From an uncultured Nitrosomonadales bacterium (GTDB lineage: Bacteria > Pseudomonadota > Gammaproteobacteria > Burkholderiales > Gallionellaceae), in the NCBI GenBank assembly GCA_903892645.1, contig CAITJF010000263.1, forward strand, positions 1 to 53,353: 53,353 nt of DNA. The letters run 5' to 3'. This document shows positions 1-17,559 of this stretch, one piece after another. How positions within the stretch are numbered: position 1 is the first letter of the stretch; each line of letters starts with the position of its first letter. The notes beneath the pieces are model-generated. The model was not told the origin of the DNA. It saw only the letters and a list, made by a program, of their open reading frames with translations, and made no database searches. The position numbers and the translations under genes were made by a program.

Positions 1-508
1 CGATGGCTTGGTTCATGCACTCGATAGACTCGCCGGAAGCAAGATCATAACGAACATTCCCCCGCCAGCAGAAATAAAGGAAAGTGGCGACAGCTTCAAT
101 TTGATTCGATACGAGGCAGAGCTGGATCGTGATGGACGCATTGATGCTGTAAATATTGAACTGCCTGAGCGGCTCTATCATTTTGCGACAGACTGGACGT
201 ACGTATGTGCCATGCACCCTGACTACTTCTCGCTCACGCCATTACGCAGGCTGATCTACATCCTCGCCAAAATACATTGTGGCGAGTGGTGTCCGTGGAC
301 AATATCCATCAATGAATTACACCGGTTGACGGGCGGCACGTCGCCTTTCCGTAAATTCAAACAGTTTGTGCAAGCACTTAACGATAATTCAATCCCCGAA
401 TATCGGATCGAGGTGGATGCGCAGAATGCGACCCCGACCTTTTATCGGCTTGCGCAACAAACCCCATCATTCGTGCCAGGAATGACATCAACAGAGCGCA
501 CTCTGTAA
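1..508 (+). CDS. Plasmid replication initiator protein, RPA family (C-terminal part)
   Basis: This is the 3' part of a replication initiator gene; the frame is open to the left edge of the window (first full codon at base 2), so the real start lies outside. About 169 codons are visible. The block around SLTPLRRLIYILAKIHCG followed by TSPFRKFK matches what I recall of the RPA (replication initiator protein A) family of broad-host-range proteobacterial plasmids, which bind iterons and open the origin. The iteron array directly downstream, with the stop codon inside the first iteron, strongly supports this role. Function is inferred from family and context. Finding such a gene a few kb from chromosomal housekeeping genes implies an integrated replicon or an integrative element that can replicate. 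Confidence 0.8.
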   Translation, partial: DGLVHALDRLAGSKIITNIPPPAEIKESGDSFNLIRYEAELDRDGRIDAVNIELPERLYHFATDWTYVCAMHPDYFSLTPLRRLIYILAKIHCGEWCPWTISINELHRLTGGTSPFRKFKQFVQALNDNSIPEYRIEVDAQNATPTFYRLAQQTPSFVPGMTSTERTL

Positions 509-973
509 AACGAATGCACTTTATTTTAGCAATCCTGTAAAGCGGGTACGCCTGCGTGCCGATCTGTAAAACGTTCCGATCATCAAAGCAACCCGGTAAA
601 ACGGGTACGCCACCATCCACATGAATATTATATGGATAATTTCTGTAAATCGGGTGCAGGCGTCTTATTCGGATGCTGTAAAACGGGTACGCTTTTGTGC
701 CGACCTGTAAAACGTTCCGCTCATCAAAGCAACCCGGTAAAACGGGTACGCCATTATCTACATGAATGCTATATGGATAATTTCTGTAAATCGGGTGCAC
801 GCGCATTTTGCTGGCGCTGTAAAACGAGTACGCCTGCGTGCCGACCTGTAAAACGTTCCGCTCATCAAAGCAACCCGGTAAAACGGGTACACCATTATCT
901 ACATGAATGCTATATGGATAATTTCTGTAAATCGGGTGCACACGCATTTTTTTGACGCTGTAAAACGGGTACG
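503..973. repeat. Iteron array, putative replication origin (oriV)
   Basis: Fourteen copies of a 15-18 bp motif (type CTGTAAAACGGGTACGC) lie in one orientation, starting at 503, 535, 564, 594, 643, 676, 705, 735, 784, 817, 846, 876, 925 and 958. From 535 on, spacing is 29, 30, 49, 33 repeated three times, giving an exact 141-bp unit (535, 676, 817, 958). Within a unit the four positions carry four distinct variants (…GGGTACGC, …GTTCCG, CGGTAAAACGGG…, CTGTAAATCGGGTGC), so the array grew by duplication of a four-iteron block. Such iterons beside an initiator gene are the classical plasmid origin arrangement. The first copy contains the rep stop codon TAA (506-508). Confidence 0.85.
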
Positions 974-1177
974 TTTACCGCGCGGAACCGGCTGCGCGCG
1001 TTGAAGTAAAGTTGCGCGGAAACGACTGATTCCGCCACACAATAAAATTACTGTTTTTTGTATTGGTCGACGTAAATATGGAAGATCACTTCATCACCGC
1101 AACGGAACCTGTGAGATTTCTACTTGGCGTCGCGACACGTCACGCAGCTCAATACACGTTTTGTGTACGGAGATGTC
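974..1177. other. Non-coding stretch between iterons and recombination module
   Basis: About 200 bp follow the last iteron. The first half is GC-rich and includes two GCGCGGAA-type segments (about 982 and 1015). An AT-rich patch with a T run lies near 1043-1063 and could be the origin's unwinding region or a promoter for the next gene. No gene is convincing here; short open frames lack a ribosome-binding site. This stretch should contain the junction between the plasmid replication region and the recombinase module, but no clear inverted or direct repeat marks it. Confidence 0.4.
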
Positions 1178-1635: not shown

Positions 1636-1794
1636 TGATCGGCAAGCTTGATGGGGCCGAATACCATATTGCCCATGCGCTCTCTCTGCACGTTCTGCAT
1701 GGAATTCAAATATGGCCTTCATTCTTTCCTTGAGGGCAGCAACAGCGAATTATTGAGAGCTGATTTTACAAATGAACCGGGGCGATCAAAACTT

Positions 1795-3360
1795 ATGCAA
1801 CAAGACGAATCAAGCGATATCGTGGTTGAAGCGCCTACACTGTTGCGAGCGGTGGAATACGTTCGGATGTCGACCGAGCACCAGCAATACTCCACAGAAA
1901 ACCAATCTGACAAAATCCGCGAGTACGCCGCCCAGCGCGGTATTGAAATTGTCCGGACCTACACCGACGCCGGCAAAAGTGGTCTGCGCATGGAAGGACG
2001 CGCGTCGCTGCAACAGTTGCTCAAGGATGTCGAAAGCGGCTCGACGGATTTTACGATCATTCTGGTCTACGACGTCAGCCGGTGGGGGCGATTTCAGGAC
2101 GCCGACGAAAGTGCCTTTTACGAGTACCGCTGCCGAAGTGCCGGCATCCAGGTCGCCTACTGCGCCGAGCAGTTTGAGAATGACGGCTCCCCGGTGTCCA
2201 CCATCGTCAAGAGCGTCAAACGAGCTATGGCCGGTGAGTACAGCCGTGAACTATCCGCCAAGGTATTCGCCGGGCAGTGCCGACTGATTGAACTCGGTTT
2301 TCGGCAAGGCGGACCGGCTGGCTACGGGCTACGCCGTGTGCTTCTTGACCAGAACGGTTCCATCAAAGCGCAACTTACCCGTGGCGAACACAAGAGTTTG
2401 CAGACTGACCGCGTCATTCTCATGCCCGGCCCGGATGATGAAATACATAATGTCAATCTCATGTACCGCTGGTTCATCGATGACGGCCTGGTCGAATCAG
2501 AGATCGCCAGACGCTTGAACGAGATGGCGGTGCGCACCGATCTGGACAGGCCGTGGACGCGTGCCACCGTGCATGAGGTGCTGACCAATGAAAAATATAT
2601 CGGCAACAATATCTATAACCGGACATCGTTCAAGCTCAAAAAACTGCGGGTGGAAAACACGCCAGACATGTGGATCAAGAAGGAAGGAGCCTTCGATCCT
2701 GTCGTTCTGCCCGAACTGTTCTATACCGCGCAAGGGATCATTCGCGCCCGGTCGTACCGTTACACGAATGAAGAGTTGATCGAGCGCCTGCGCCATCTTT
2801 ACCAAAACCGAGGATTCCTGTCGGGCCTGATCATCAACGAGGCCGAGAACATGCCATCAACGTCGATCTACACACACCGCTTCGGCAGCCTGGTGCGCGC
2901 CTATCAAATGGTGGGCTTCACGCCCGATCGTGATTACCGGTATCTGGAAACCAACAAGTTCCTGCGCCGTTTCCATCCTGAAATCGTCAATCAGATCGAA
3001 AGCCAGATCGCCAGTCTTGGCGGTGTCGTCCGGCGCGACCCGGCCACTGACCTCCTGCGGGTCAATGATGAATTCAGCATCTCATTGGTGTTGGCGCGGT
3101 GTCAGACGCCAGAGAGTGGTCGCCATCATTGGAAGGTGAGGTTCGATACCAGTCTTGCACCGGATATCACCGTGGCGGTTCGCCTTGATCAGACCAATCA
3201 GGCAGCCCTGGACTATTACCTGTTGCCGCGCTTGGATTTTTGGCAGCCTCGCATCAGTCTGGCCGAGCGCAATGCTGTCGAGTTCGAGAGCTACCGGTTC
3301 GACAGTTTGGATTACCTGTACGGGATGGCAGAGCACACACGGTTGAGGAGAGCTGCATGA
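1795..3360 (+). CDS. Large serine recombinase (resolvase/invertase superfamily)
   Basis: The product is about 521 residues from ATG 1795; the frame is open further upstream to 1648, but that part looks unlike a recombinase, so the start is a choice. The catalytic N-terminal resolvase domain opens with EYVRMSTEHQ, where the Ser at about residue 26 is the expected nucleophile, and continues with DAGKSG and VSRWGRF. A recombinase domain follows at about 185-300 (SEIARRLNE, NEKYIGN). The Cys-rich zinc ribbon typical of many large serine integrases is not visible; the C-terminal 200 residues are of another kind. The enzyme should cut and rejoin DNA at specific att-like sites. It overlaps the next gene by ATGA (3357-3360), so it is co-translated with two ParB-like proteins. 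Its target site is unknown. Confidence 0.85.
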   Translation: MQQDESSDIVVEAPTLLRAVEYVRMSTEHQQYSTENQSDKIREYAAQRGIEIVRTYTDAGKSGLRMEGRASLQQLLKDVESGSTDFTIILVYDVSRWGRFQDADESAFYEYRCRSAGIQVAYCAEQFENDGSPVSTIVKSVKRAMAGEYSRELSAKVFAGQCRLIELGFRQGGPAGYGLRRVLLDQNGSIKAQLTRGEHKSLQTDRVILMPGPDDEIHNVNLMYRWFIDDGLVESEIARRLNEMAVRTDLDRPWTRATVHEVLTNEKYIGNNIYNRTSFKLKKLRVENTPDMWIKKEGAFDPVVLPELFYTAQGIIRARSYRYTNEELIERLRHLYQNRGFLSGLIINEAENMPSTSIYTHRFGSLVRAYQMVGFTPDRDYRYLETNKFLRRFHPEIVNQIESQIASLGGVVRRDPATDLLRVNDEFSISLVLARCQTPESGRHHWKVRFDTSLAPDITVAVRLDQTNQAALDYYLLPRLDFWQPRISLAERNAVEFESYRFDSLDYLYGMAEHTRLRRAA

Positions 3361-4259
3361 CAGAAAAGATACCGACAGGTGAGATGCGGCTGATCCCAAT
3401 CAACCTGATTGACGTCCTTAATCCCAGAGAACGCAACAAAAGCGTGTTCGATGAGATTGTCGCCAACATCAAAGCGATCGGCCTGAAAAAACCGATCACC
3501 GTGACTCCGCGTGCCGACCCGGATGGCACCGAGCGTTATCTTTTGATTTGTGGCGAAGGTCGCATGAAGGCGTTCCGCTCATTGGGTGAGCAGACCATTC
3601 CGGCTTTGGTTGTGACAGTCAGCGATGAAAACGCTTTCATCATAAGTTTGGCAGAAAATATCGCGCGTCGCCAATACCGACCGCTGGAACTGCTCGTCGG
3701 CATCGAGCAACTTCGCGACCAAGGTTACGATAAGAAGGTCATCGCGCAAAAAACAGGGCTCACGGTCGAATACGTGAATGGCATCCTGACGCTCCTGAAA
3801 AATGGCGAAGAGCGGCTACTGGTTGCGGTTGAGAGGGGGCGCATTCCCCTGAATGCGGCGCTGACTATCGTCGGTGCGGGTGACGATGACAAAGACGTCC
3901 AAGCGGCGCTTCAGGATGCCTATGAGTCCGGCAAGCTTCGCGGCAAACAACTGATCCAGGCTCGCCGTGTCATTGAGTCCCGGCTAACCTTGGGCCGATC
4001 GGTGGCGCGTGGCACTCCACGCAAGAGACAGGATGTTACGACCTCAAGTTTGGTCAGGGTCTATCAGAAGGAAGTGGATCGCCAAAAGCAAATGGTGAAA
4101 AAAGCCGAGATTACCCAACAGCGTCTATTGTTTGTCGTCGGTGCCCTGCGCGAGCTGCTTGCCGATGAGCATTTCACCACCCTGTTGCGTGCGGAAGGTT
4201 TGGACTCGTTACCGAAATACCTCGCTGACCGAGTTTGGTCAGGAGGGCGTACAGCATGA
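3357..4259 (+). CDS. ParB/RepB/Spo0J-like DNA-binding protein (first)
   Basis: About 300 residues. The ATG at 3357 overlaps the recombinase stop. The N-terminal ParB-type domain is recognisable by CGEGRMKAFRSLG (ParB GERR-like box) and by ENIARRQYRPLE (ParB ENxxR box), followed by a helix-turn-helix region near KKVIAQKTGLTVEYVNGIL. The C-terminus is charged and helical. ParB proteins bind parS-like sites and, in several families, are CTPases; the ENxxR box that contributes to CTP handling is present here. No ParA ATPase gene is next to it, so ordinary partition is doubtful. Coupling to the recombinase suggests a role in recombination-site recognition or element maintenance. Confidence 0.8.
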   Translation: MTEKIPTGEMRLIPINLIDVLNPRERNKSVFDEIVANIKAIGLKKPITVTPRADPDGTERYLLICGEGRMKAFRSLGEQTIPALVVTVSDENAFIISLAENIARRQYRPLELLVGIEQLRDQGYDKKVIAQKTGLTVEYVNGILTLLKNGEERLLVAVERGRIPLNAALTIVGAGDDDKDVQAALQDAYESGKLRGKQLIQARRVIESRLTLGRSVARGTPRKRQDVTTSSLVRVYQKEVDRQKQMVKKAEITQQRLLFVVGALRELLADEHFTTLLRAEGLDSLPKYLADRVWSGGRTA

Positions 4260-5137
4260 CCAAGGTGTCAATTGGGTTCGATCTTGAATCGCTGACAGTG
4301 CCGGTCGACAAGATCCTGCCGTCGCGCAAAACGCCCGTGGGCATTTCCACCTCACGCAAATACATGCAGATTCGATCATCGATCCAGGAGATTGGGCTGA
4401 TCGAGCCCTTGTCAGTGGGATCAGCTAATTCGAAGACCGGCCAGCACATCCTCCTCGACGGTCACATTCGTTTGATCGCGTTGCGGGAATTGAACTACAG
4501 CAAGGTGCCGTGCCTAGTTGCCACGGATGACGAGAGCTACACCTACAACAGTCGAATTAACCGCTTATCGACAATCCAAGAGCACTATATGATCCGGCGC
4601 GCAATTCAACGCGGTGTCACCCCAGAGCGGCTGGCCAAAGCACTCAGCTTGGATCCGCGCACGATCACTCGGAAGATGTCACTGCTGGAAGGAATCTGCC
4701 CGGAGGCAGCCGAATTGCTCAAAGATTGTCAGTTCGCAACTGACATTTCTCGGGCGCTGCGCAAAATGAAGCCGACCCGTCAGGTCGAATGCGTTGAGTT
4801 GATGGTATCGGCCAACACCATCACAGTTGCGTATGCCGAAGCGATGTTGGTCGCAACACCTGCGGCGATGCTGGTTGAGGGGAAGAAACCAGCTAAGCTG
4901 ACCGGATTGAGCCAGGAGCAAATGGCAAAAATGGAGCGCGAGATGAGCAATCTTCAAGGGCAGTACAAGATGGTCGAACAGACCTACGGCCAAGACGTTC
5001 TCAATCTGGTGCTGGCCAAGGGCTACCTGACCAAACTGCTGGATAACAAATCGGTGGCTCGCTACCTCAAGCAGCGCCAGTCTGAGGTACTGGCCGAGTT
5101 TGAGACAATCGTTCAGACGGTATCGCTCGATCAATAA
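4256..5137 (+). CDS. ParB-like protein with RepB-type C-terminal domain (second)
   Basis: About 293 residues. The ATG at 4256 overlaps the previous stop by ATGA, and AGGAGG at 4241-4246 is a strong ribosome-binding site. The N-terminal half is ParB-like (LLDGHIRLIALREL in place of the GERR box), with a helix-turn-helix near PERLAKALSLDPRTITRK. The C-terminal part (from about LLEGICPEAAELLKD) resembles the RepB-type domain of plasmid partition proteins. The ENxxR box is weak or absent, unlike in the first ParB, suggesting the two have different roles, for example site binding versus clamp formation. It ends the recombinase-ParB-ParB operon; a 165-bp gap precedes the Fic gene. Confidence 0.78.
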   Translation: MTKVSIGFDLESLTVPVDKILPSRKTPVGISTSRKYMQIRSSIQEIGLIEPLSVGSANSKTGQHILLDGHIRLIALRELNYSKVPCLVATDDESYTYNSRINRLSTIQEHYMIRRAIQRGVTPERLAKALSLDPRTITRKMSLLEGICPEAAELLKDCQFATDISRALRKMKPTRQVECVELMVSANTITVAYAEAMLVATPAAMLVEGKKPAKLTGLSQEQMAKMEREMSNLQGQYKMVEQTYGQDVLNLVLAKGYLTKLLDNKSVARYLKQRQSEVLAEFETIVQTVSLDQ

Positions 5138-5302
5138 GGGCTGCGTGAAATTGGATCGAAACCCAGTCAAATAGTGATGCGGAGATTACAATACGTTATA
5201 TCCGCAACTCTTGAGGCGATAAATTTGCGCAACAAAGACCCGTTAATCTATCTCCTGCGGTGAATGTCTGTCATAATAGACGCACAAATTGCGGAGATTA
5301 AA

Positions 5303-6403
5303 ATGTTTGTCTGGGAGCAGTCTGATTGGCCAGGTTGGCGCTTTGATGCGAGTGTGCTTTCTACGGCACTGGCCAGTGTTCGCCATTCGCAGGGGCGTTT
5401 GCTGGGGCGAATGGAAGGACTGGGCTTTGCGCTACGCGACCAAGCTACCCTGCAAGTGCTGACAGAAGACGTACTCAAAACCAGCGAAATCGAAGGGCAG
5501 CAACTCAATCCAGAGGCGGTGCGTTCATCCATTGCCAGACGCCTAGGGGTAGATATTGGTGCTCTGGTTCCTGCCGATCGGCATGTGGATGGTGTAGTCG
5601 AGATGGTGCTGGATGCAACCAGCGGGTTTGCCAATCCGCTGACTCGGAAACGCCTGTTCGGCTGGCACGCTGCACTTTTTCCAACGGGATATAGCGGCCT
5701 TGCGAAAATCAGGATCGGTGCTTGGCGAGATGATGCGGCAGGCCCCATGCAAGTTGTGTCGGGTCCTGTCGGTCGCCAGAAAGTGCACTATGAGGCACCT
5801 CCGGCTGCGCGTCTTGAAGCAGAGATGGAAGCGTTCTTGCGTTGGTTCAATAGTGGGCAAGACATCGACCCTGTCATCAAGGCGGGGCTTGCGCATCTGT
5901 GGTTTGTGACTATCCACCCGTTTGATGATGGCAATGGGCGGATTGCGCGTGCTATCGGTGATATGGGGCTGGCTCGGTCGGAACTATCTGCACAACGTTT
6001 CTATAGCCTGTCTGCCCAAATTCAGCGTGAGCGCAAGGAATATTACAATTTGCTGGAGCAGACCCAGAAGGGCGAGCTTGATGTGACTGAATGGCTCGCA
6101 TGGTTTTTGGCGTGTCTTGGGCGCGCAATCGAGGGTTCTGAAAGCACGCTTGGAATGGTGATTGCTAAGGCACGATTCTGGGAGCGGTGTGCTGGCATAT
6201 CGCTCAACGAGCGACAAGTTAAATTAATAAATCGGTTTCTCGATGGCTTCGAAGGCAAACTAACTAGCTCCAAGTGGGCAGCGATAGCGAAGTGTTCCCC
6301 TGATTCAGCGCTGCGCGACATTAATGATTTGATCGAGCGCGGCGTGCTGAAAAAAGCCGAGGGTGGTGGCAGAAGCACGAGTTATGAGTTGGTAGTTGAA
6401 TGA
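5303..6403 (+). CDS. Fic family protein, class II (putative AMP transferase)
   Basis: The start at 5303 is preferred over ATG 5264 because GGAG (5293-5296) is correctly spaced. The 366-residue product has an N-terminal segment like DUF4172 (MFVWEQSDWPGW), an N-terminal inhibitory helix motif TSEIEG at about 60-65, which is the [ST]xxxE[GN] signature of class II Fic enzymes, and the intact core HPFDDGNGRIAR near residue 206. A winged-helix-like C-terminus (about 310-366) follows. Fic enzymes usually transfer AMP from ATP to hydroxyl groups of target proteins; the Glu of the inhibitory helix normally restrains this. It lies 132 bp upstream of the helicase operon on the same strand, so it could be an independent regulator/toxin or part of the defence block; the sequence does not decide this. 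Confidence 0.88.
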   Translation: MFVWEQSDWPGWRFDASVLSTALASVRHSQGRLLGRMEGLGFALRDQATLQVLTEDVLKTSEIEGQQLNPEAVRSSIARRLGVDIGALVPADRHVDGVVEMVLDATSGFANPLTRKRLFGWHAALFPTGYSGLAKIRIGAWRDDAAGPMQVVSGPVGRQKVHYEAPPAARLEAEMEAFLRWFNSGQDIDPVIKAGLAHLWFVTIHPFDDGNGRIARAIGDMGLARSELSAQRFYSLSAQIQRERKEYYNLLEQTQKGELDVTEWLAWFLACLGRAIEGSESTLGMVIAKARFWERCAGISLNERQVKLINRFLDGFEGKLTSSKWAAIAKCSPDSALRDINDLIERGVLKKAEGGGRSTSYELVVE

Positions 6404-6535
6404 GAGTAATGCACCATCAAATCGTTTGGATTATGCCGGACTTTACAGTACATTACAGCACATCCTCATTTAGCAGCAGAACAATAAGAGCAGAGGGTTT
6501 GGAAGCGAATGGGTGCGCGTAGTTCAGGGGAATGA

Positions 6536-9500
6536 ATGACAACAAAAACAGTTGCGAATACTCAAGGCATCCGCGACAACTATAGACGCGGCAATGTGTC
6601 GGACTTTCTGAAGGAAAAAATTCAGGAAGGATCAATGCTCTCGGTAGTTTCCGCATACTTCACAATCTATGCCTATGACGCGCTCAAAGGCAATCTTGAC
6701 CGCATCGAGCATCTTGATTTCCTTTTCGGTGAGCCATCATCCGTCAATCGTCTCGACCCCAATAAGACGGATATGAAGGCCTTCATCATTGATGCCGACG
6801 GGCTGGAGCTTGCAAACAAACTTCAGCAAAAGCGTGTAGCCAAAGAATGCGCTGAGTGGATAGAGCAAAAAGTCGACATCAAGACCATCAAGCAGTCGAA
6901 CCTGCTCCACGGAAAGATGTATCACATCGCGACCGGCGGAGTGGAGGACGCAATTCTCGGTAGCTCCAATTTCACCGTCCGTGGTCTCGGGCTGGGCAAT
7001 GGGGGAAACAATATTGAATTGAACCTGATTGTTGATAGCAACCGCGACCGCCAAGAGCTGAAGCAGTGGTTCATGGAAGTATGGAATGACGAAGCATTGG
7101 TCAAGGATGTGAAACAGGAGGTGCTGAACTACCTTCGGAAGCTCTACGCGAACCAGCCGCCCCAGTTTATTTACTACCTCACACTTTTCCACCTCTTCCG
7201 AGATTACCTCGATGGTACACGCGACATCGACGATAACATCCGGCGTGTCGCACTCCCTGATACACACATTTGGCGCACGCTCTATACCTTCCAGAAGGAC
7301 GGTGCCAAAGCGGCCATCAACAAGATTCTTGAATATAACGGCTGCATTCTTGCGGATAGTGTTGGCTTGGGGAAAACCTACACTGCCCTCGCCGTCATAA
7401 AATATTTCGAGCAGCGCAACGAGCGCGTTCTAGTGCTTTGCCCAAAGAAACTAAGCCGCAACTGGACTATCTACCGCAACCCCAGTTCACTGAATCCATT
7501 TTCTGACGACAAGTTCAGATATGACGTACTTCATCATACTGACCTTTCGCGCGAATCTGGCAACGTCAACGGCCTAGAGCTGGACACGCTGAACTGGGGT
7601 GCCTACGACCTAATCGTAATCGACGAGTCACACAATTTCCGAAATAATAAGCTGGCGACCCAACGCTATGGAGACACGAAAGAACGCAGGAGCCGTTATC
7701 AGCGGCTCATGGAGGACATCATCTCCGCAGGTGTAAAAACGAAGGTGCTATTGCTTTCGGCCACGCCGGTAAACAACCAGTTGGCGGATCTCCGCAACCA
7801 GATTTCCTTCATTGCTGGTGGCGACGTGGCACGCAACGATTCTGCGGACGCAGCTTTTGCCGAGAAGCTCAACATCCTATCGGTCAGGGACACTTCCCGG
7901 CAGGCACAAACGCAATTCACCAACTGGGCCAAGAAGCCACCAGGCCAACGTAAAACACGCGAGCTCATCGCGGCCATCGGCGGTGACTTCTTCAAGCTGC
8001 TCGACGGTCTCAGTATTGCCCGTTCGCGAAATCAAATTGCCTCCTATTACGCTGGCGAGATGAAAGAGCTTGGCGGGTTCCCACGTCGGCCAGCGCCAAA
8101 GGCAATTCATGCGCCCATTGATTTGGAGCAGCGCTTCTTGTCGTTTGAGCAGCTCGATGCTGAAATCAGTGCGCTAAACTTGGCGCTCTATCACCCAACG
8201 AGCAAGCTACGCGATGATTTGCCAGCAAACATCCGTGCCGAATATGAAAACAAAATCCTCGGAGGGTTTACCCAGGAGGGCCGTGAGCGCATCCTCATCT
8301 CGATGATGAAGGTCAACTTCCTCAAGCGCCTCGAAAGCTCCGTGGATTCCTTCCGCCTGACGCTCCAACGAACCATCAACAAGATTGATCGGCTGGAAGA
8401 ACGCATCACCGCTTTCGAGAAGCACCTCGATGATAATCCCCACATCGACTACGATTCGCTGACCCCAGACCAGTTTGAGGACCCTGATTTTGACGAAGAG
8501 GATTTCACCATCGGTGGCCGCCGCCGCATCCATCTCGCCCATCTAAAATTGCCGGAATGGCTCAAAGAGGTTCGGAATGACCGCACCCAACTTCAATTCC
8601 TGCTCGAAAAAACCCAGTCCGTTACGGCCAAACGCGACGGCAAGCTCGCCGAACTTAAAGCGTTCATCGAAGCCAAGGTCCGCCAGCCCACCACCAACCG
8701 CGATGGCAAAGTCAATCGGAAGATGCTTGTTTTCACCGCCTTTGCCGACACCGCCCGCTATCTCTACGAAAACCTCGACTTATGGGCGCGGAAAGAACTC
8801 AAGATTCATACTGGCCTCGTCTGCGGTGACGGGGGCAACGCCGCCTCACTGGGCCGTACTGACTACGACGACATCCTCACCAACTTCTCTCCGATAGCCA
8901 AACGACGCGCGGACCAGTCTCCCAGATTTCAAAATCAACAAGAGGAAATTGACCTTCTCATCGCAACGGATTGCATCAGCGAAGGCCAGAATCTTCAGGA
9001 CTGCGACCTGCTCGTCAACTACGACATTCATTGGAACCCTGTCCGCATCATTCAGCGCTTTGGTCGTATTGATCGTATTGGCTCGCGTAATGATTCGGTG
9101 CAGTTAGTCAATTTCTGGCCAGTCACCGATCTCGATCATTACCTCGGACTCAAGTTGCGCGTGGAAGCGCGCATGGCGCTTGCTGACTTGGCCGCCACGC
9201 AAACAGACAACCTTCTCGATCCTGGACAACTTGAAGACCTAATCAAGGAGGATATGCTATTTCGTGACCGCCAGCTCAAGCGCCTCAAGGACGAAATTCT
9301 TGATCTCGAAGACCTCGACGATTCCGTTTCGCTCACCGATTTTTCACTAGACGAGTTTCGCATGGACCTTTTGCGCTATCTGAAGGCAAACCAAAAGGAG
9401 CTCGAAGAGGCTGGCGAAGGGCTCTATGCCGTCGTGCCACAAAAGGTAGATTTGTTCATGGCCGCGCAACCTGGCGCGCTGTTCTGCCTGCGTCACCGCG

Positions 9501-9916
9501 CAACGGAAAAGAAGTCGCCCGACACATCAAGCAAAGCAGCCGATTCCACTAGATTGAATCCGCTGGCGCCTTACTATCTTGTTTACGTCCACGACGATGG
9601 CACTGTCCGTTTTAGCTTTGCCAAGCCGAAGGAATCAATGATTCTCCTGCGTGATCTCACTGCTGGAGAGCCAGCTGCATTTGAGAAACTTTGCGACCTG
9701 TTCGATCAGCACACACAGGACGGCACTGACATGAGCCACTACGATGGCCTGCTTAGGAAAGTGCTCGCCTCAATAGAACACACCTTCCAACGGCGTGCGG
9801 TCGCCTCACTCCTGAGCAATCGTGGCGCGCTGCTGCCAACCACTTCCGAAGCCCCGACCTCCAGCGGAGACGACTTCGAACTCGTCACCTGGCTGGTCAT
9901 CATGGAGGCACAATAG
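6536..9916 (+). CDS. PLD-nuclease/SNF2 helicase fusion of a restriction-like system
   Basis: The product is 1126 residues; AGGGG lies just before ATG 6536. The N-terminus is a phospholipase D-like domain with LHGKMY (His125, Lys127) and GSSNF (Asn145), the HxK…N pattern of PLD-type nucleases; only one HxK is visible, so a dimer may be needed. From about 245 an SF2 SNF2-type helicase follows: Walker A SVGLGKT (about 275-281), DESH (363-366), SATPVNN (about 408) and motif VI QRFGRIDRIGS (about 840). A coiled, Glu/Arg-rich insert lies between the two RecA-like lobes. It should translocate on DNA and cut it through the PLD domain. The next gene, a DNA methyltransferase, starts 4 bp after its stop. 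DISARM and some other systems also combine SNF2 helicases, PLD proteins and methylases, but this fusion plus ATPase arrangement is not one I recognise by name. Confidence 0.88.
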   Translation: MTTKTVANTQGIRDNYRRGNVSDFLKEKIQEGSMLSVVSAYFTIYAYDALKGNLDRIEHLDFLFGEPSSVNRLDPNKTDMKAFIIDADGLELANKLQQKRVAKECAEWIEQKVDIKTIKQSNLLHGKMYHIATGGVEDAILGSSNFTVRGLGLGNGGNNIELNLIVDSNRDRQELKQWFMEVWNDEALVKDVKQEVLNYLRKLYANQPPQFIYYLTLFHLFRDYLDGTRDIDDNIRRVALPDTHIWRTLYTFQKDGAKAAINKILEYNGCILADSVGLGKTYTALAVIKYFEQRNERVLVLCPKKLSRNWTIYRNPSSLNPFSDDKFRYDVLHHTDLSRESGNVNGLELDTLNWGAYDLIVIDESHNFRNNKLATQRYGDTKERRSRYQRLMEDIISAGVKTKVLLLSATPVNNQLADLRNQISFIAGGDVARNDSADAAFAEKLNILSVRDTSRQAQTQFTNWAKKPPGQRKTRELIAAIGGDFFKLLDGLSIARSRNQIASYYAGEMKELGGFPRRPAPKAIHAPIDLEQRFLSFEQLDAEISALNLALYHPTSKLRDDLPANIRAEYENKILGGFTQEGRERILISMMKVNFLKRLESSVDSFRLTLQRTINKIDRLEERITAFEKHLDDNPHIDYDSLTPDQFEDPDFDEEDFTIGGRRRIHLAHLKLPEWLKEVRNDRTQLQFLLEKTQSVTAKRDGKLAELKAFIEAKVRQPTTNRDGKVNRKMLVFTAFADTARYLYENLDLWARKELKIHTGLVCGDGGNAASLGRTDYDDILTNFSPIAKRRADQSPRFQNQQEEIDLLIATDCISEGQNLQDCDLLVNYDIHWNPVRIIQRFGRIDRIGSRNDSVQLVNFWPVTDLDHYLGLKLRVEARMALADLAATQTDNLLDPGQLEDLIKEDMLFRDRQLKRLKDEILDLEDLDDSVSLTDFSLDEFRMDLLRYLKANQKELEEAGEGLYAVVPQKVDLFMAAQPGALFCLRHRATEKKSPDTSSKAADSTRLNPLAPYYLVYVHDDGTVRFSFAKPKESMILLRDLTAGEPAAFEKLCDLFDQHTQDGTDMSHYDGLLRKVLASIEHTFQRRAVASLLSNRGALLPTTSEAPTSSGDDFELVTWLVIMEAQ

Positions 9917-9920
9917 CGCT

Positions 9921-12900
9921 ATGGCCGCAGACATTAAAAGGATTGAAGCTGCCCTTGCCACCTTCTCGCAACAGCCTCTCCGCGAAGCGGCCACCAAGTT
10001 CTTGGGTGAGCTCGGTTATCAATCCGACCGTACGCTCAACCTCGGTAATTCCAGCCCGAGGGCATTTCTTGAGTTAGTGAATTCTCATACCGGCAGTGCT
10101 GGTTTTAACGAATCCAAAGCCTTATTTTCAAACTGGGCATCCGCCGACCTCCTCTTCCAGCTCACCGACGAGGAACTCTCTGGCAACATGAGCCTCTTCA
10201 AGGATACCGCCGTCGATCCCGGCCTGCTCCGCTCCTACCTCTTTTTCGCCATAGAATTAACCGGCGGCGACTACCCCCGTGGCAAACTTACCGGCATTGC
10301 CCGCCAGATCAACCGCGTCTTCCCCATGCCCGTCATGCTGCTCATCAAGCACCTTACGGATAAGAAGCCCGTTCTTTCAATCGCCGTCATCAACCGTAGG
10401 CAGAACAAGCGCGATGCTGCGCGCGATGTTCTCGGCAAGGTCACCATCATCCGCGATATTTCGCTCTCGCAGCCACATCGTGGTCACCTCGACATCCTTG
10501 CATCCTTTGCCTTTCATGACCTTGTCCACCCACAACGGCTCCCGATCAATAACTTCGATGCCCTCCACGCCGCATGGGAGGAAATATTCAATGTCGAGTT
10601 GCTTAGCCAGCGTTTCTACCGCGAGCTGGCCAATTGGTACTTCTGGGCTCTCCCGCAAGTCGAGTTCCCATCCGACACTGAGAAGGACGATGACAAACGC
10701 CGTGCCACCTCGCTTATCCGCCTGCTCACCCGTCTCATCTTCTGCTGGTTCCTGAAGGAAAAGGGACTCATCCCCGATAAACTTTTCGTCGAGGCCGATC
10801 TGAAGCGCATCCTCGCCGACCTCGCGCCAGATGCCTCCACTTACTATCAGGCCATCCTTCAAAACCTTTTTTTCGCTACGCTTAACCAGCGTATGGGAAA
10901 GGATAAAAATGGCCAGCCCTACCGTACATTTGCTCTCAATGAGGGTTTCCTGAATAACCGCGCCACCTATGGTGTAGACACCCTTTATCGGTACGAGGAG
11001 CACTTCTGCGACCCGGCCACTGCCATCGACCACTTCGTTGACGTGCCTTTCCTCAATGGGGGCCTGTTCGAATGTCTTGACCGCATTGAGGACGGCACCG
11101 ACAAGAAACTCTATATCGACGGCTTCTCGCGAAATAAGAAGAAGCGTCCCTCTGTCCCCAATCGCCTCTTTTTCGCTGATGAGCAGACAGCCGACCTTTC
11201 CGGTGCCTACGGTGAACCCAAGCGCAGGAACGAGAAAGTTCGCGGCCTTCTCCGCATCCTGCATGCGTACAAGTTTACGATCGTAGAGAACACACCCATT
11301 GACCAGGAAATTGCCCTGGACCCAGAACTGCTCGGCAAGGTTTTTGAAAACCTCCTCGCCTCCTATAACGATGAAACCAAGACCACAGCCCGCAAACAGA
11401 CCGGTTCCTTCTATACCCCGCGCCCCATTGTCGAATACATGGTTGATGAATCACTAAAGGCTCACCTCACCGGCGCGCTGACAAAAACCGGCATGGGCGC
11501 AGAGGACGCTCAGACCGGTCTCGACATTCTGTTCACCTACACCGAGCGCGACCACCCGTTCCACGAACGAGAGGTCACCGTACTGCTCGACGCCATACAC
11601 ACCTGCAAGATTCTTGACCCCGCTTGTGGCTCAGGCGCCTTCCCGATGGGCATGCTGCACAAGCTTGTTTACATCATCCATAAGCTTGACCCCGACAACT
11701 CCCGCTGGAAACAGCTACAAATCGAAGCCGCCGAAAAAATCCCAGATTCCTCCTCCCGTGACGCCGCTATTGTTGCCATTGAGCGAGACTTCGCCGACAA
11801 CGAGGACGATTACGGTCGCAAGCTCTACCTCATAGAGAACTGTCTCTATGGCGTGGATATTCAGCCCATCGCGATACAGATTTCAAAACTCCGCTTCTTC
11901 ATATCTCTCGTCTGCGATCAGCGCACCAACCGCAGCAAGAAAGAAAACCACGGCATTCGTCCGTTGCCTAACCTCGAGACCAAGTTCGTTGCCGCCGACA
12001 CACTGATTGGTTTGCCCGAGATGGAGCAGATGACACTCGTTCCGCAGCGCGTTTACCAGATCGAGGCGGAGATCGAATCCCTCTATCACAAGCACTTCGC
12101 AGTCCAGCGCCGCGACCAGAAGCTCGCCCTTCAGCGCAAACTCAAAGAACTCCGCAAAGAGCTCGGGAAACTCCTTGCCGAAAGCCTTATGGCCTCCAAA
12201 AAGGCTCAGCACGTCGCCGACTGGGACCCATTCGACCCTCAGGCTAGCTCAGACTTTTTTGATTCGCACTGGATGTTCGGGCGCTCGCTAGCAGATGGCT
12301 TCGACATCGTATTGGGGAACCCACCTTATCAGTCAGCAATTGAACACAAGAAGGTGAGAGGTGAGATATATAGGAACTCCGTTAAGCAACGATACATCTC
12401 AGCTACAGGGACATGGGATCTCTACATTCCGTTCTTTGAAGCTGGGATTAAGTTCCTAAAGGCAAATGGGGTTCTTTCATTTATCTCGCCGAACAAGTTT
12501 CTTTCAGCGACATATGGTATTGGACTTCGCAAGTTTTTTCTTGAGACATGCCGCATCCTTTCATTGACCGATGTCAGTCACCTTCCAGTTTTTGAATCAG
12601 CTAGTGTCTACCCAGTAATTTCAGTTTTTCAGAAAATACGGCCCAAGGATCAGTACGAACTCATGCTCAACCTTCCAAGTTCACGGGCCTCGCAGTTTAA
12701 TGCGGATGAATATTTGGTTGCCCGACAGAGCTCTTATGCCTTAACACTCCTGCCAGAAAACTTATGGGGGTTCTTGCTTTCACCTCGCCTGAAGATTTTG
12801 GAGTCCCTATTGATCGACTGTCAGACACTCGATTCAGTTACTCGTGTTTGCGCTACAACCACAGCTGCCGAAGCGGATGAACTAGGTGCAACGCTTTGCT

Positions 12901-13670
12901 CCGCACCAAGTGCCGGATGGAAGACTTTAAACACGGGAACGATCGATCCGTTCTGCAACCATTGGGACTCCGTGCCAATTCGGCACCAAGGGAAATATGT
13001 ATCTCAGCCGATGATACCTAACGGAACAGCTGTGTCCGAAAACCGACGCGATCTCTACTCTTCGCCAAAATTGATCATTGCCAAGATGGCCCTGCGATTG
13101 GAGGGGTTCGTCGATCGACGAGGAGAGTATGCAGCCCTCAATTGCAATTGCGCCTCTGCCCCGACTAATGACTGGACATTAGATTCATTAGCTGTGGTTC
13201 TCCATTCCACTGTGGTCGCATTTGCATATAAACAGTACTTCGATGCTCTGAGAATGAGCGGCGGTTACTTGCCGTTTCAGGCACCACAGCTAAGGATTAT
13301 TCCGATTCCTAAGATCAAGAAGCCCGCTGTCGAACGATTGGATACGCTTGGCCAACTTTGTGCATTGGCTACAAATTCGCAGATTGACAATACAGTTCGA
13401 GCGTTTCTTGCGGATCTTTCGGACGCCTGCGTAATGGAGTGCTACTTCTGCAAGCACATGGCGGAGCGCGATCTGCTCTTCCTTGACGACCTGGCCCCAC
13501 ACCTCACCGCCTACGATCCAAATGAATCTGAGGCGAAGCAATGCGAGTATCTCACCAAAATCTACCATACACTCAACTCTCCGTCGTCGAAGATACGCAA
13601 TCGCCTCCTGCGTCTCACCGCCGACAGTCCCGACCTCCTCGGTGTCATCAAGGAGGAGGGCAAGGTATGA
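9921..13670 (+). CDS. Eco57I-like N6-adenine DNA methyltransferase with specificity domain
   Basis: The start at 9921 (MAADIKRIEAAL) is chosen because it follows the helicase stop by 4 bp; the frame itself opens earlier. The product is about 1249 residues. A long helical N-terminus (about 1-480) precedes GSFYTPRPIVEYMV, a standard lead-in to N6 methylases. The SAM motif I DPACGSGAF is near 566-574, YGVDIQPIAIQISKLR follows near 640, and the catalytic NPPY is near 800. The C-terminal ~450 residues (TaqI/Eco57I-like) should read the target sequence. It resembles BREX PglX and type IIG enzymes in layout, but no PD-(D/E)XK motif was seen in the N-terminus, so cutting may be left to the PLD-helicase. 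It overlaps the ATPase gene by ATGA. Its C-terminal part is visibly more AT-rich than the rest. Confidence 0.88.
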   Translation: MAADIKRIEAALATFSQQPLREAATKFLGELGYQSDRTLNLGNSSPRAFLELVNSHTGSAGFNESKALFSNWASADLLFQLTDEELSGNMSLFKDTAVDPGLLRSYLFFAIELTGGDYPRGKLTGIARQINRVFPMPVMLLIKHLTDKKPVLSIAVINRRQNKRDAARDVLGKVTIIRDISLSQPHRGHLDILASFAFHDLVHPQRLPINNFDALHAAWEEIFNVELLSQRFYRELANWYFWALPQVEFPSDTEKDDDKRRATSLIRLLTRLIFCWFLKEKGLIPDKLFVEADLKRILADLAPDASTYYQAILQNLFFATLNQRMGKDKNGQPYRTFALNEGFLNNRATYGVDTLYRYEEHFCDPATAIDHFVDVPFLNGGLFECLDRIEDGTDKKLYIDGFSRNKKKRPSVPNRLFFADEQTADLSGAYGEPKRRNEKVRGLLRILHAYKFTIVENTPIDQEIALDPELLGKVFENLLASYNDETKTTARKQTGSFYTPRPIVEYMVDESLKAHLTGALTKTGMGAEDAQTGLDILFTYTERDHPFHEREVTVLLDAIHTCKILDPACGSGAFPMGMLHKLVYIIHKLDPDNSRWKQLQIEAAEKIPDSSSRDAAIVAIERDFADNEDDYGRKLYLIENCLYGVDIQPIAIQISKLRFFISLVCDQRTNRSKKENHGIRPLPNLETKFVAADTLIGLPEMEQMTLVPQRVYQIEAEIESLYHKHFAVQRRDQKLALQRKLKELRKELGKLLAESLMASKKAQHVADWDPFDPQASSDFFDSHWMFGRSLADGFDIVLGNPPYQSAIEHKKVRGEIYRNSVKQRYISATGTWDLYIPFFEAGIKFLKANGVLSFISPNKFLSATYGIGLRKFFLETCRILSLTDVSHLPVFESASVYPVISVFQKIRPKDQYELMLNLPSSRASQFNADEYLVARQSSYALTLLPENLWGFLLSPRLKILESLLIDCQTLDSVTRVCATTTAAEADELGATLCSAPSAGWKTLNTGTIDPFCNHWDSVPIRHQGKYVSQPMIPNGTAVSENRRDLYSSPKLIIAKMALRLEGFVDRRGEYAALNCNCASAPTNDWTLDSLAVVLHSTVVAFAYKQYFDALRMSGGYLPFQAPQLRIIPIPKIKKPAVERLDTLGQLCALATNSQIDNTVRAFLADLSDACVMECYFCKHMAERDLLFLDDLAPHLTAYDPNESEAKQCEYLTKIYHTLNSPSSKIRNRLLRLTADSPDLLGVIKEEGKV

Positions 13671-15331
13671 AGTCCCGACTGCATCGCCTTGAAATTCAGA
13701 ACTTCAAGGCCTTCCGAGAATTCGCCCTCGACCTCGAAGGTCGTCATCTCCTCGTTTATGGCCCCAACGGCTCAGGCAAATCCTCCCTCTACTGGGCGCT
13801 TTACACCTTCCTCCAAAGCGCCCGCAAGCAAACGCCCGGCGTCGCCAAGTATTTCGACCCCGCCGATTCGCAGAGCTTGCTTAATATCCACGAGCAGGGT
13901 GAGGTAACTCCGAAACCCGGCGAGATTGCTTTGACCATGCGAGATGCTGTTACCAAGATCGATACCACCTACCGTATTAGCCACACTACCCACGACACAC
14001 ATCGTCAGCCTGCCATCCTGAAGGGTGACCTCGCCAGCGACTTTATTACCTACCGCTTTTTTTTCGGCTTCTCGCACTTCCGAAATTCGGAGAAGTACAA
14101 CCTTTGGCCGTTGTTCGAAAAGGAGATATTGCCGTTCTGTGTTTCGACTGGTGGCAAGGTTCCGTTGGACTGTTGGAACGCGATCAAGGGGGGTGATCCA
14201 AATCCGTTTACGAGTCGTGGATTGGGTGGCACCTACGCCTACGATGATTTCACAAGGAGAGTCGGCGAATTCGCCGCTATCTTACCTGGCATCGTCGATA
14301 CCATAAGCATCGAAGCCCAGAAGTTTTATGACGAGCACTTCTCGCAGGGCGATCCCGAGAAAGTCACGCTCAAGCTGGGCGTCACCACGCTTCCGTCATC
14401 GACGGGCAACAACCAGCAGACCTTTCAATTCACAATCCCGGTCATCGAGTTCGGCATTCAGATAGGCAGCAAGACAATCACTCGACCGCAAGCTTTTCTC
14501 AACGAAGCCAAGCTGACGCAGTTAGCACTATCGGTACGCTTTGCCGCTTCGCTCGTTAATCTTCACGAGTCCGACCTCAAACTCTTAGTCCTCGACGACC
14601 TCCTCGTGAGCCTCGACATGAGCAACCGGATGAAGGTCGTCGAAATCCTGCTTTCCGAAACTTTTGCCAACTACCAGAAAATTATTCTCACTCACGAACT
14701 CGGATTCTTCCGCGAGTTTCGCCGCAAGCTTGGTGCTGGCCACCCGGAATGGTGCTTTCTCCGCCTCGAAGGTAACGCCGCCACCAAAATCGAAGCCAGG
14801 AGCGAGAAAACCGATATCCAGAAAGCCGAGGAATATCTGCACGGTTACAACCTCGACGAAGCCGCGCTTTGCTTGCGGAAGGCAGCAGAAGACATGGGCA
14901 GGCGATGGCGAGAGTGGGCGGACAAAAAAGCAATTCCGCCAGGCACATTTTTTACGCTCACTGAGAATCTTCGCGCCGCGAGAAATAAGCTTCTTGGCGA
15001 ACTACCGCTTAATATCCTCGAAAAGATAATCGAACCCACGCCATCCGCTTATCGCAACCTGCTGGTCGCGGCGTCGGATGCTGACGTCGACGGAAATGCG
15101 GCCCTTGATGCTGCCACAAAAGGAATTCTGAAATCAAAGCGGAAGCGTCTTCGTGAGGCGTTCACAACCGACTACAGCGACCGACTCCGGCAGATCAAGC
15201 TTATCGACGACATCCTCGCCTGCACCGAGCGCGTACTTAACCCTGCCGCTCACTTTAGTATCACACCACTTTACGAGAAGGAGGTTACGGACGCTTTGGA
15301 CTTAATTAAGCAACTCGAAACTATTGTATAA
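13667..15331 (+). CDS. SMC/RecF-like AAA ATPase, third gene of the restriction-like operon
   Basis: The product is 554 residues. ATG 13667 overlaps the methylase stop (ATGA) and follows AGGAGGAGGG. It has an ABC/SMC-type ATPase head split by a short middle region: Walker A YGPNGSGKSS at about 31-40, an ABC-signature-like segment LNEAKLTQLALSVRF near 280, Walker B LLVLDDLLVSLD near 305, and the switch His in LTHELGFF near 342. The C-terminal 190 residues are helical (AEEYLHGYNLDEAALCLRKA) and unassigned. There is no TOPRIM domain, so it is not an OLD nuclease. RecF-like ATPases in defence operons often sense DNA ends or invader DNA and gate effectors; that role here is inference. No further gene is joined to it; 206 bp of non-coding DNA follows. 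Confidence 0.82.
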   Translation: MKSRLHRLEIQNFKAFREFALDLEGRHLLVYGPNGSGKSSLYWALYTFLQSARKQTPGVAKYFDPADSQSLLNIHEQGEVTPKPGEIALTMRDAVTKIDTTYRISHTTHDTHRQPAILKGDLASDFITYRFFFGFSHFRNSEKYNLWPLFEKEILPFCVSTGGKVPLDCWNAIKGGDPNPFTSRGLGGTYAYDDFTRRVGEFAAILPGIVDTISIEAQKFYDEHFSQGDPEKVTLKLGVTTLPSSTGNNQQTFQFTIPVIEFGIQIGSKTITRPQAFLNEAKLTQLALSVRFAASLVNLHESDLKLLVLDDLLVSLDMSNRMKVVEILLSETFANYQKIILTHELGFFREFRRKLGAGHPEWCFLRLEGNAATKIEARSEKTDIQKAEEYLHGYNLDEAALCLRKAAEDMGRRWREWADKKAIPPGTFFTLTENLRAARNKLLGELPLNILEKIIEPTPSAYRNLLVAASDADVDGNAALDAATKGILKSKRKRLREAFTTDYSDRLRQIKLIDDILACTERVLNPAAHFSITPLYEKEVTDALDLIKQLETIV

Positions 15332-15537
15332 ATTAAAAAATGGCGATTTATTTTTCATCTGCCAGATTTGCAAATCAACCATTACCCACACTTGGCAGCG
15401 GCAAGTTGTGCGAAATAGTTGATGGTATGCAAGGTGGTTTTTGAAAAGCGGTGTATGGAGTGATGCGTGTTGTCGAGGATAAAATATGAGAGCCTGCACA
15501 TGATGCATAACTTGCTCACCAGAAAGGTTCGTTTGAT

Positions 15538-17097
15538 ATGAAACCGTTGCGCATTTTTATCAGCAGCGTGCAGAAGGAATTCTCCGCAGAGCGTATCGCG
15601 CTGCGCGATTGGCTGCGCAACGATGCGTTGATGCACCGTTTTTTCGAGCCGTTTTTGTTTGAGGATGTGCCAGCGGCGGATCGTCGTGCCGATGAGGTTT
15701 ATTTGGATGAGGTGGCGGGGTGCGATATTTACGTCGGGCTGTTTGGCAACGAGTATGGCTTTGAAAATACTGCCGGTGTTTCGCCCACCGAACGTGAGTT
15801 CGCCCAAGCGACTGCGCACCACAAGACCCGCCTGATTTTTGTGAGGGGTGCGGACGATCTTCGCCGCCACGCCAAGATGCAGGCGTTGATCGGGCGCGTG
15901 GGCAATGAGTTGATCCGCCGCCGCTATGCCAGCACGTCGGAGCTGGTCGCCGGGCTGTATGCGGCATTGGTGCAATATCTGGAATCGCATGAGCTGATTC
16001 GCAATGGGCCGTTTGATGCGGCACCGTGCCGCAATGCCACGCTGGCTGATCTGGATGAAGAGCGCATGGTCACTTTTCTGCGGCGCGCGCGTCGCGCACG
16101 GGGTTTTCCTCTGCCGGAGGAGGCCACGCCGGGCGAGTTGCTGACGCATCTCAATTTGCTTGATGATGGCCGTCCCACCAATGCCGCGATGCTGTTGTTC
16201 GGCAAACAGCCGCAACGGTTTCTGATTTCTTCCGAGGTGAAGTGCGCTCACTTCCACGGAATGGAGGTGGCCAAGCCGATTCCGTCGTATCAGGTGTACA
16301 AGGGCACGGTGTTCGATCTGGTAGATCAGGCGGTGGATTTTGTGATGTCCAAAATCAATCTCTGGGTTGGCACGCGCGAGGCAGGTGCTGCCGTGCCGGT
16401 GGAATACGAAATTCCCCGCGAGGTGGTGGCGGAGGCTATCGTCAATGCCGTGGCGCATCGCGATTACACCAGCAATGGCAGCGTACAGGTGATGTTGTTC
16501 GCCGACCGGCTGGAGGTGTGGAACCCCGGCGCTTTGCCGCCATCGCTGACACTGGAAAAGTTGCGCCATCCGCATGGTTCTGTGCCGTTCAATCCGCAGT
16601 TGGCGGAGCCGCTTTACCTCACCAAGTACATCGAGCGTATGGGGACGGGCACGGGCGACATGATTCGCCGCTGCCGCGAAGTGGGGCTGCCGGAGCCTCG
16701 GTTCACGGTGTCGGATGGGTTTGTGACGACGATCTGGCGCAAGGCCGGACAAGTCGCCGGACAAGTCGCCGGACAAGTCGCCGGACAAGTCGCCGGACAA
16801 GTCGCCGGACAAGTCGCCGGACAAGTCACCGGACAAGTCACCGGACAAGTTGATCCGTGGGTGATGCGTGTTGTTGAAGCGTGCTCAACTAAAGATTTGA
16901 AGAGCGCAGAAATTCAGGAAGTGGCGGGAATCCGGCATCGTGAGACTTTTCAGCGTAACTATCTGGATAAGCTGCTGGAGGATGAATTGTTAGAACGCAC
17001 CATTCCAGACAAACCTAATAGTCGCTTGCAACAATATCGGCTGACTGAAAAAGGGCGGTTGTTATTGGGGTCGTTGCGAAAAGTGAGTCCGACATAA
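15538..17097 (+). CDS. DUF4062 + GHKL-type ATP-binding protein with GQV repeats
   Basis: The product is 519 residues. The N-terminus ([14 protein letters not shown] to about residue 95) is DUF4062, a TIR/nucleoside-deoxyribosyltransferase-like fold common in defence proteins. The middle resembles the RecG-like/AlbA_2-associated transcriptional regulator family with a GHKL ATPase (HATPase_c_4), seen in [19 protein letters not shown] and RLEVWNPG. Then come nine tandem [AT]GQV units (about 403-438) and a C-terminal winged helix ([21 protein letters not shown]). Such proteins are often annotated as transcriptional regulators or ATP-dependent DNA-binding proteins; the substrate is unknown. It is the last intact gene of the island. 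A base stretch at 15450-15478 upstream resembles its own coding sequence around VMRVVE, hinting at an older partial copy. Confidence 0.8.
16744..16851 (+). repeat. 12-bp tandem repeat encoding [AT]GQV x9
   Basis: Nine head-to-tail 12-bp units (consensus GCCGGACAAGTC; the last two begin ACC) encode AGQV seven times and TGQV twice. The units are nearly identical in DNA, which points to recent slippage or recombination. Because the unit is 12 bp, copy-number change keeps the frame and only alters the length of the linker between the ATPase and the winged helix. Confidence 0.95.
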
Positions 17098-17163: not shown

Positions 17164-17559
17164 TGGACATCGGCAGTTGGTGAGCAAGATGCCAAGCGTT
17201 TGTTGGGTGGTGATAGCCAGAAAACTGCGGTGAAAACTTCGGTGAAAACTTCGGTGAAAACGCCGGAGAGAATCCTTCAGTTATTGGAGGCAAATCCGTC
17301 CATGACGCTTGCCCAAGTTGCCACCGAGATTGAAAAGTCACAACGTGCCGTTGAACTCGCCAGTTCCAAGCTGGTTAAGGCAGGGCGGTTGAGATACGTT
17401 GGCCCGCAAAAAGGTGGGCACTGGGAGGTATTGAAAGGAGCGCAAAGCAACAAGTTGCCGCCTTCGCTGAAGCCAATATACAAGATGGGGGATGTGAACT
17501 CGTTATCCGAGCCACAAATTTCTGTGGCGTTTTTGTGGCGGTCATCAGCCAAAACATGA
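17164..17559 (+). pseudogene. Remnant of a winged-helix C-terminus (Fic/AlbA_2-type protein)
   Basis: From 17164 the frame reads about 131 codons without a good start or ribosome-binding site; a stop precedes it at 17161. The segment KTAVKTSVKTSVKT (a three- to four-fold VKTS repeat) followed by a winged-helix unit (PERILQLLEANPSMTLAQVA, then GRLRYVGPQKGGHWEVL) is the usual C-terminal tail of Fic or AlbA_2-like regulators. The body of that protein is missing, and after WEVLK (about 17435) the frame runs on into unrelated sequence. It is best read as a decayed gene end, perhaps of a relative of the preceding DUF4062 protein. A short expressed DNA-binding peptide from TTG 17200 cannot be excluded. 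Confidence 0.6.

Follow-up and report, generated by a model that had tools for sequence, protein, structure and literature searches.

What does an array of fourteen short repeats, lying between a replication initiator gene and a transfer gene and built on a spacing that recurs three times, do for the element that carries it, and how did it arise? The window analysed here, in which this array occupies part of the first kilobase, is an entire contig of 53,353 bp (G000:C263) from a genome of 2.68 Mb in 268 contigs. Judged from its sequence and surroundings, we regard the array as the probable iteron part of the origin of vegetative replication (oriV) of an RPA-type replicon belonging to a MobI-type mobile element, with a probability of about 0.82.

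An iteron array downstream of a truncated initiator gene

The window begins within a replication initiator gene (rep), of which the 3' part (positions 2–508, plus strand, 168 codons) is present with an open frame throughout. Because the window is a whole contig, the 5' part falls outside it and is not seen, and it was not found elsewhere in the contigs of the same genome. The encoded fragment matches PF10134 (E = 2e-23, profile positions 94–227 of 228) and is the sole RPA match in its genome. The assignment made in a preliminary description, of the iterons to an adjoining RPA-type initiator gene, is supported. One RPA relative also exceeds the cut-off for PF01051, the WH1 domain profile of iteron initiators of the Rep_3 family. 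A sequence search of solved structures gave no match, and a structure prediction from three sequences reached a pLDDT of 33. The contig has no terminal overlap of 15–399 bases of the kind expected of a circle. No plasmid DNA relatives of positions 1–1100 were found, and viral contigs contained no Rep relative, their motif matches being single, one per stretch. On another contig of the genome (C179, 6645–6743), a stretch with a short palindrome and without an RPA gene resembles the Nitrotoga region upstream of rep.

The fourteen iterons, all on the plus strand, span positions 503–974 and start at 503, 535, 564, 594, 643, 676, 705, 735, 784, 817, 846, 876, 925, and 958. A first spacing of 32 bp is followed by the series 29, 30, 49, and 33 bp, repeated three times, so that three units of 141 bp (535–675, 676–816, and 817–957) lie between a lead iteron (503–519) and a closing iteron (958–974). 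Each unit contains four variants in constant order: A (CTGTAAAACGGGTACGC; 535, 676, and 817), B (CTGTAAAACGTTCCG; 564, 705, and 846), C (CGGTAAAACGGGTACGC; 594, 735, and 876), and D (CTGTAAATCGGGTGCAC; 643, 784, and 925). The closing iteron is again an A, and A and C are one base apart. Three tail types are mixed in the array, that of the lead iteron (GAATGCAC) being the Nitrotoga type and that of B the type of two other relatives (L036 and L037). The number, spacing, and order of the iterons are therefore as first reported.

This regularity lies far outside what chance would give, as random reordering of the 13 spacings reproduced the period in 2 of 200,000 trials, and Tandem Repeats Finder returned a period of 141 bp with 3.1 copies (score 717). 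The motif CNGTAAAWCGNNTNC, with at most one mismatch, has 11 matches in the array and one elsewhere in the 53 kb, compared to an expectation of 1.4 (sd 1.26) for the whole window, and 12 matches were reached in 0 of 100 shuffles. Elsewhere in the genome, the core pattern of the iterons has two stray single matches. A unit corresponds to 13.4 helical turns (141/10.5), as the preliminary description had calculated. None of the spacings of 29, 30, and 49 bp amounts to a whole number of turns, and a Rep filament on a single face of the DNA is therefore not obvious. C and D are separated in each unit by an AT-rich gap (611–642, 72% AT; 752–783 and 893–924, 75% AT), a candidate unwinding element whose counterparts in relatives have 62–77% AT. 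The gaps also contain DnaA-like sites, which are weak evidence because each carries a single mismatch and duplicates the others.

Related elements in the Gallionellaceae carry the cassette once

RPA relatives are present in 26 of the 158 family genomes. Close relatives of the Rep fragment (81–82% identity) are encoded at three loci on named contigs, two from Candidatus Nitrotoga records and one from a Nitrosomonadales MAG. The closest distinct loci have the order rep, iterons, conserved box, mobI, and share a skeleton in which four iterons are set 31/32, 48/49, and 33/34 bp apart and the last is followed after 46 bp by the box and then mobI. The individual spacings are 31, 49, and 33 bp in L016 and L035, 32, 48, and 34 bp in L036 and L037, and 31, 31, 49, and 33 bp in L033, and L058 has a spacing of 34 bp within its motif-detected part. 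The distance of 46 bp to the box is found in L033, L016, L036, L037, and L058 and for the closing iteron of the window; the box of L035 was missed by the pattern search, yet it aligned in the block alignment. The 49/33 part of the skeleton occurs once in these relatives and three times in the window.

Searching the 158 family genomes with window positions 503–1063 gave DNA matches in 15, including the source genome itself, and no second triplicated array. Each match outside the window is one stretch that ends in the box region and in some cases extends back over the last cassette, except that one genome (G142) has two such loci and another (G143) an extra piece of 27 bases. The rep genes of the Candidatus Nitrotoga HW29/SPKER element (L011 and L012) and of L013 and L035–L037 are 75–82% identical to the window fragment. 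These loci resemble the window in the place and geometry of their iterons, the box, and the adjacent mobI, but have one cassette, other iteron tails, and an intact mobI. In L012, mobI (PF19456) is followed by genes for a TraD-like coupling protein and a DUF4400 protein, and the Nitrotoga rep has a gene for an ALP actin as its neighbour.

Related elements also reside in chromosomes, as found in genome G064. There, a single contig of 3.16 Mb contains, at 918,708–963,915 (L153–L156), an RPA rep, TraD, DUF4400, and BREX genes (BrxC, Eco57I methylase, PglZ, and BrxL), with genes for a tyrosine recombinase and ALP actin at the far end. This appears to be a mobile element that has integrated, brings along an iteron replicon, and carries phage defence genes as cargo. 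The same surroundings minus the replicon occur on the Sulfuricystis plasmid pSTJ2 (L148), where a tyrosine recombinase gene is followed by a ParM/StbA gene and then by mobI, and where the annotation shows no RPA gene in between.

The array as a putative replication origin

Among the relatives, the iteron tail tracks Rep and not MobI. L033 and L035 have a common AATGCA tail with Rep proteins 86% and MobI proteins 68% identical, whereas the tails of L033 and L036 differ (AATGCAC vs. TTCCGC) with Rep proteins 81% and MobI proteins 88% identical. This covariation, seen across a small set of relatives, favours an initiator-binding origin over the possibility that the repeats are part of an oriT bound by MobI or another transfer protein. 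The array does adjoin mobI in all close relatives, and the intergenic region between srpM and mobI of the integrative and conjugative element (ICE) R391 holds the oriT, according to the portion of the source available (PMC4489591). Still, the iterons change where MobI is well conserved and persist where it has diverged, and RPA plasmids without MobI also have repeats beside rep. Moreover, a block nearest mobI (974–1035, plus strand; TTTACCGCGC...GAAGTAAAGTTGCGC...GATTCCGC) is kept across loci with quite different iterons; it aligned in six relatives, was matched also in more distant family genomes, and, by analogy with this region of R391, appears to be the better oriT candidate. We therefore consider it very unlikely that the iterons themselves serve in transfer.

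The state of the element raises a second alternative. Homology of mobI (5' end at 1078–1110, plus strand) to its relatives ends after about 11 codons, and the remainder of MobI was found neither in the window, where tblastn matches were at chance level, nor in the rest of the genome. Positions 1648–17,097 encode a serine recombinase, two RepB-like ORFs, a SoFic-like Fic protein, an HKD/SNF2 helicase (PADLOC C3a139), a type IIG restriction-modification protein, and an SMC-like ATPase, and further to the right the contig runs on into chromosome-type genes, e.g. recQ and purL. Minisatellites of 12 bp are found at 16,744–16,850 (8.9 copies, inside the ORF at 15,538–17,097) and 17,220–17,261 (3.5 copies). 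The 3' part of a TraD gene, 97% identical to that of Nitrotoga, is located on a separate contig (C136). In this genome the element is broken at mobI and, with rep seen only in part, this copy may be dead and no longer replicate. The array could then be a functionless remnant of an element in decay, expanded neutrally in the manner of a satellite, to which the truncated mobI, the chromosomal continuation, and the missing 5' part of rep would correspond. This, too, has little probability, as the visible rep frame is open and the differences among the units avoid the iterons. The 23 sites that vary among the units are mostly located between iterons; five fall within the 68 of 141 positions that belong to iterons (P = 0.005) and one within the 40 core positions (P = 0.003), indicating that the sites were kept.

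A role of the array as a centromere, on which the actin-like ALP protein would act in partition, is less probable again. A gene for this protein stands beside rep in Nitrotoga, and the same region of R391 that holds oriT also contains a centromere with repeats, as given in the accessible text (PMC4489591). However, the array and the ALP gene lie on opposite sides of rep, no ALP gene was found in the window's own genome, and the type of iteron follows Rep within the small set of relatives.

We thus return to the oriV reading. From the observed layout, conservation, copy differences, and covariation with Rep, we infer Rep binding, origin activity, and an effect on copy number. Rep produced from the upstream gene would form an ordered complex on the GTAAANCG iterons, and the DNA would open at nearby AT-rich sequence. 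A segment of Rep (TGCSSPFRNFKISVQGLLKD) is changed in the window at 8 of 20 positions, compared to 19 of 130 elsewhere (Fisher P = 0.011), and may be a recognition helix matching the new iteron tail of the window, although we do not lean on this reading because the segment was picked after viewing the alignment. By the customary reasoning on titration and handcuffing, additional iterons would bind more Rep, which may lower the copy number or strengthen incompatibility. A bolder proposal, which we regard as doubtful, is that the array acts as a tandem triple origin. Each 141-bp cassette would then have what a minimal origin needs (four fixed variants, an AT-rich gap, and a DnaA-like pair), the number of modules would set the copy number, and modules would be gained or lost by recombination between A iterons; successive modules would be rotated by 0.43 turn, leaving no continuous Rep face. 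The family offers a clean natural contrast between one and three copies of the same heterogeneous cassette at fixed geometry. In RPA replicons, which have been little studied, this allows a test of whether copy number is set by how many iterons there are or by their order. If the element is dead, its value would be mainly evolutionary.

Growth of the array

The array had been described as an exact 141-bp repeat, which holds for the spacing but not for the sequence, as the units differ from one another at 19, 18, and 9 of 141 positions (87–94% identity). The smallest difference, 9 positions, is that between units 2 and 3, whereas unit 1 differs from them at 18–19 positions, fitting two rounds of copying. 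Over a stretch of 99 bp, the units are 85–93% identical to one another and 61–68% identical to the relatives; they were thus either copied after the split from these relatives or homogenised. Taken together, these observations are consistent with an ancestral layout of a single iteron cassette between rep and the box before mobI, which would persist in the relatives, and in which the stretch from A to A (141 bp, comprising four iterons and one AT-rich gap) would have been copied twice in the lineage of the window. A iterons probably served as the sites of the unequal exchange or slippage involved, exchange being the simplest route since an A iteron is found at every unit boundary. Unit 1 would be the older one and units 2 and 3 the outcome of later copying, and the subsequent drift, mostly outside the iterons, would reflect constraint on the sites or homogenisation for some time.

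That a single cassette was erroneously assembled three times is barely credible, even with a fragmented genome, a contig end 500 bp away, and one cassette in the relatives, because each unit has its own variants (9–19 differences in pairwise comparison, 23 variable sites in all) and the longest exact repeat among the units, 53 bp, is within normal read lengths, making a short-read artefact unlikely. Further identical units could have been lost by assembly collapse. The preliminary description had coupled two eventualities, a cassette present only once in related origins and an assembly artefact in the window; the first is what we observed, and the second is contradicted by the divergence of the units.

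Its proposal that the array grew by duplication of a four-iteron cassette agrees with the single cassette of the relatives, but the added "rather than growth by single units" goes too far where the whole family is concerned, as the Nitrotoga array (L033) is one 31-bp unit longer than those of L016 and L035 (Tandem Repeats Finder, 2.5 copies of 31 bp). Internal duplications of at least 45 bp at offsets above 40 were detected in 4 of 30 scored loci, namely the window and L041 (73 bp, offset 120), L038 (57 bp, offset 119), and L059 (47 bp, offset 125), with the reservation that the 29 loci other than the window are not independent (L033 and L034 are identical and L044–L050 nearly so). L040 and L043 were too short for this scoring, and L057 was dropped as tblastn detected no rep. 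With duplications at three other loci, the window is extreme but not unique in kind.

A protein-coding reading of the array (141 bp equal 47 codons; ORFs at 632–955 on the plus and 378–947 on the minus strand) was rejected, as no Pfam match exceeded the cut-off and the 23 variable sites are spread evenly over the codon positions (9/6/8). An RNA reading was rejected as well, with no RNA family matching positions 1–2400.

The rep stop codon within the first iteron

The rep gene ends with CTG TAA, its TAA (506–508) lying inside the iteron at 503, just as the preliminary description had stated, with the suggestion that binding at the origin could affect the end of the gene. As a device, however, the overlap is not conserved, being present at 2 of 8 distinct loci with GTAAA-type iterons, the window and L036 (CTG TAA ATCG). 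The stop codon lies shortly upstream of the array in L033, L016, L035, and L042, the rep frame reads through iterons in L037 and L058, and the Rep tail beyond TFYR is not conserved. Since the iteron contains TAA, a drifting rep frame will stop there in one of three frames, and the overlap looks incidental, resulting from drift of the rep 3' end into the array.

Comparison with known replication systems

The initiator family of the window is shared with RPA plasmids such as pPDL2 of Sphingobium, Polaromonas pW10NP1, Fluviibacter pSHINM1, and Nitrosospira plasmid 3. Of 16 RPA plasmids sampled, 14 have repeats next to rep, the upstream side of the other two (Wohlfahrtiimonas and Paracoccus p5) being too short to score. 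As in the window, the repeats are located downstream of rep in the plasmids of Fluviibacter, Polaromonas, Acidithiobacillus, Halomonas, and Nitrosospira, in contrast to alphaproteobacterial RPA plasmids with their repeats upstream. The sampled plasmids differ from the window in iteron sequence and mostly have one short period (about 22–34 bp). Weaker higher-order periods are found in Sphingomonas p03, Halomonas p1, and Fluviibacter pSHINM1, and a four-variant cassette repeated three times occurs in none of the sample. DnaA-like replicons of Rhodobacterales have been linked to RPA. In the portion available of a paper on these replicons, RPA is not mentioned (PMC9025767). For pPDL2, a mini-replicon of repA and oriV is reported to replicate in the section of the source considered here (PMC3516476).

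Classical origins contain two to seven iterons, according to the part consulted of a review (PMC4980987), and IncA/C origins have 11–14 iterons of 19 bp with a sequence other than that of the window, as stated in an excerpt of a further study (PMC7433901). Fourteen iterons as such are therefore not new. In titles and abstract openings of the literature on iteron duplication and higher-order arrays, with most subscription journals outside the coverage, no repeated multi-iteron cassette is described.

Among integrated mobile elements, SGI1 offers a functional parallel, with a proven iteron oriV directly 3' of its rep gene, as far as the text of the sources at hand goes (PMC7433901, PMC7826253). 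Unlike the window, it has, in the same texts, a RepA_C-type initiator and four iterons of 16–17 bp; it depends on an IncC helper. ICEs of the SXT/R391 family and IncA/C plasmids share with the Gallionellaceae elements a coupling protein, an actin-like gene for partition, and the position of MobI next to the transfer region. R391 relies on TraI to replicate from oriT, and iterons do not appear in the accessible part of the paper on its replication (PMC4489591). The MobI-type elements of this family, some of them chromosomal, thus differ from R391 in carrying what is probably a plasmid-type iteron replicon.
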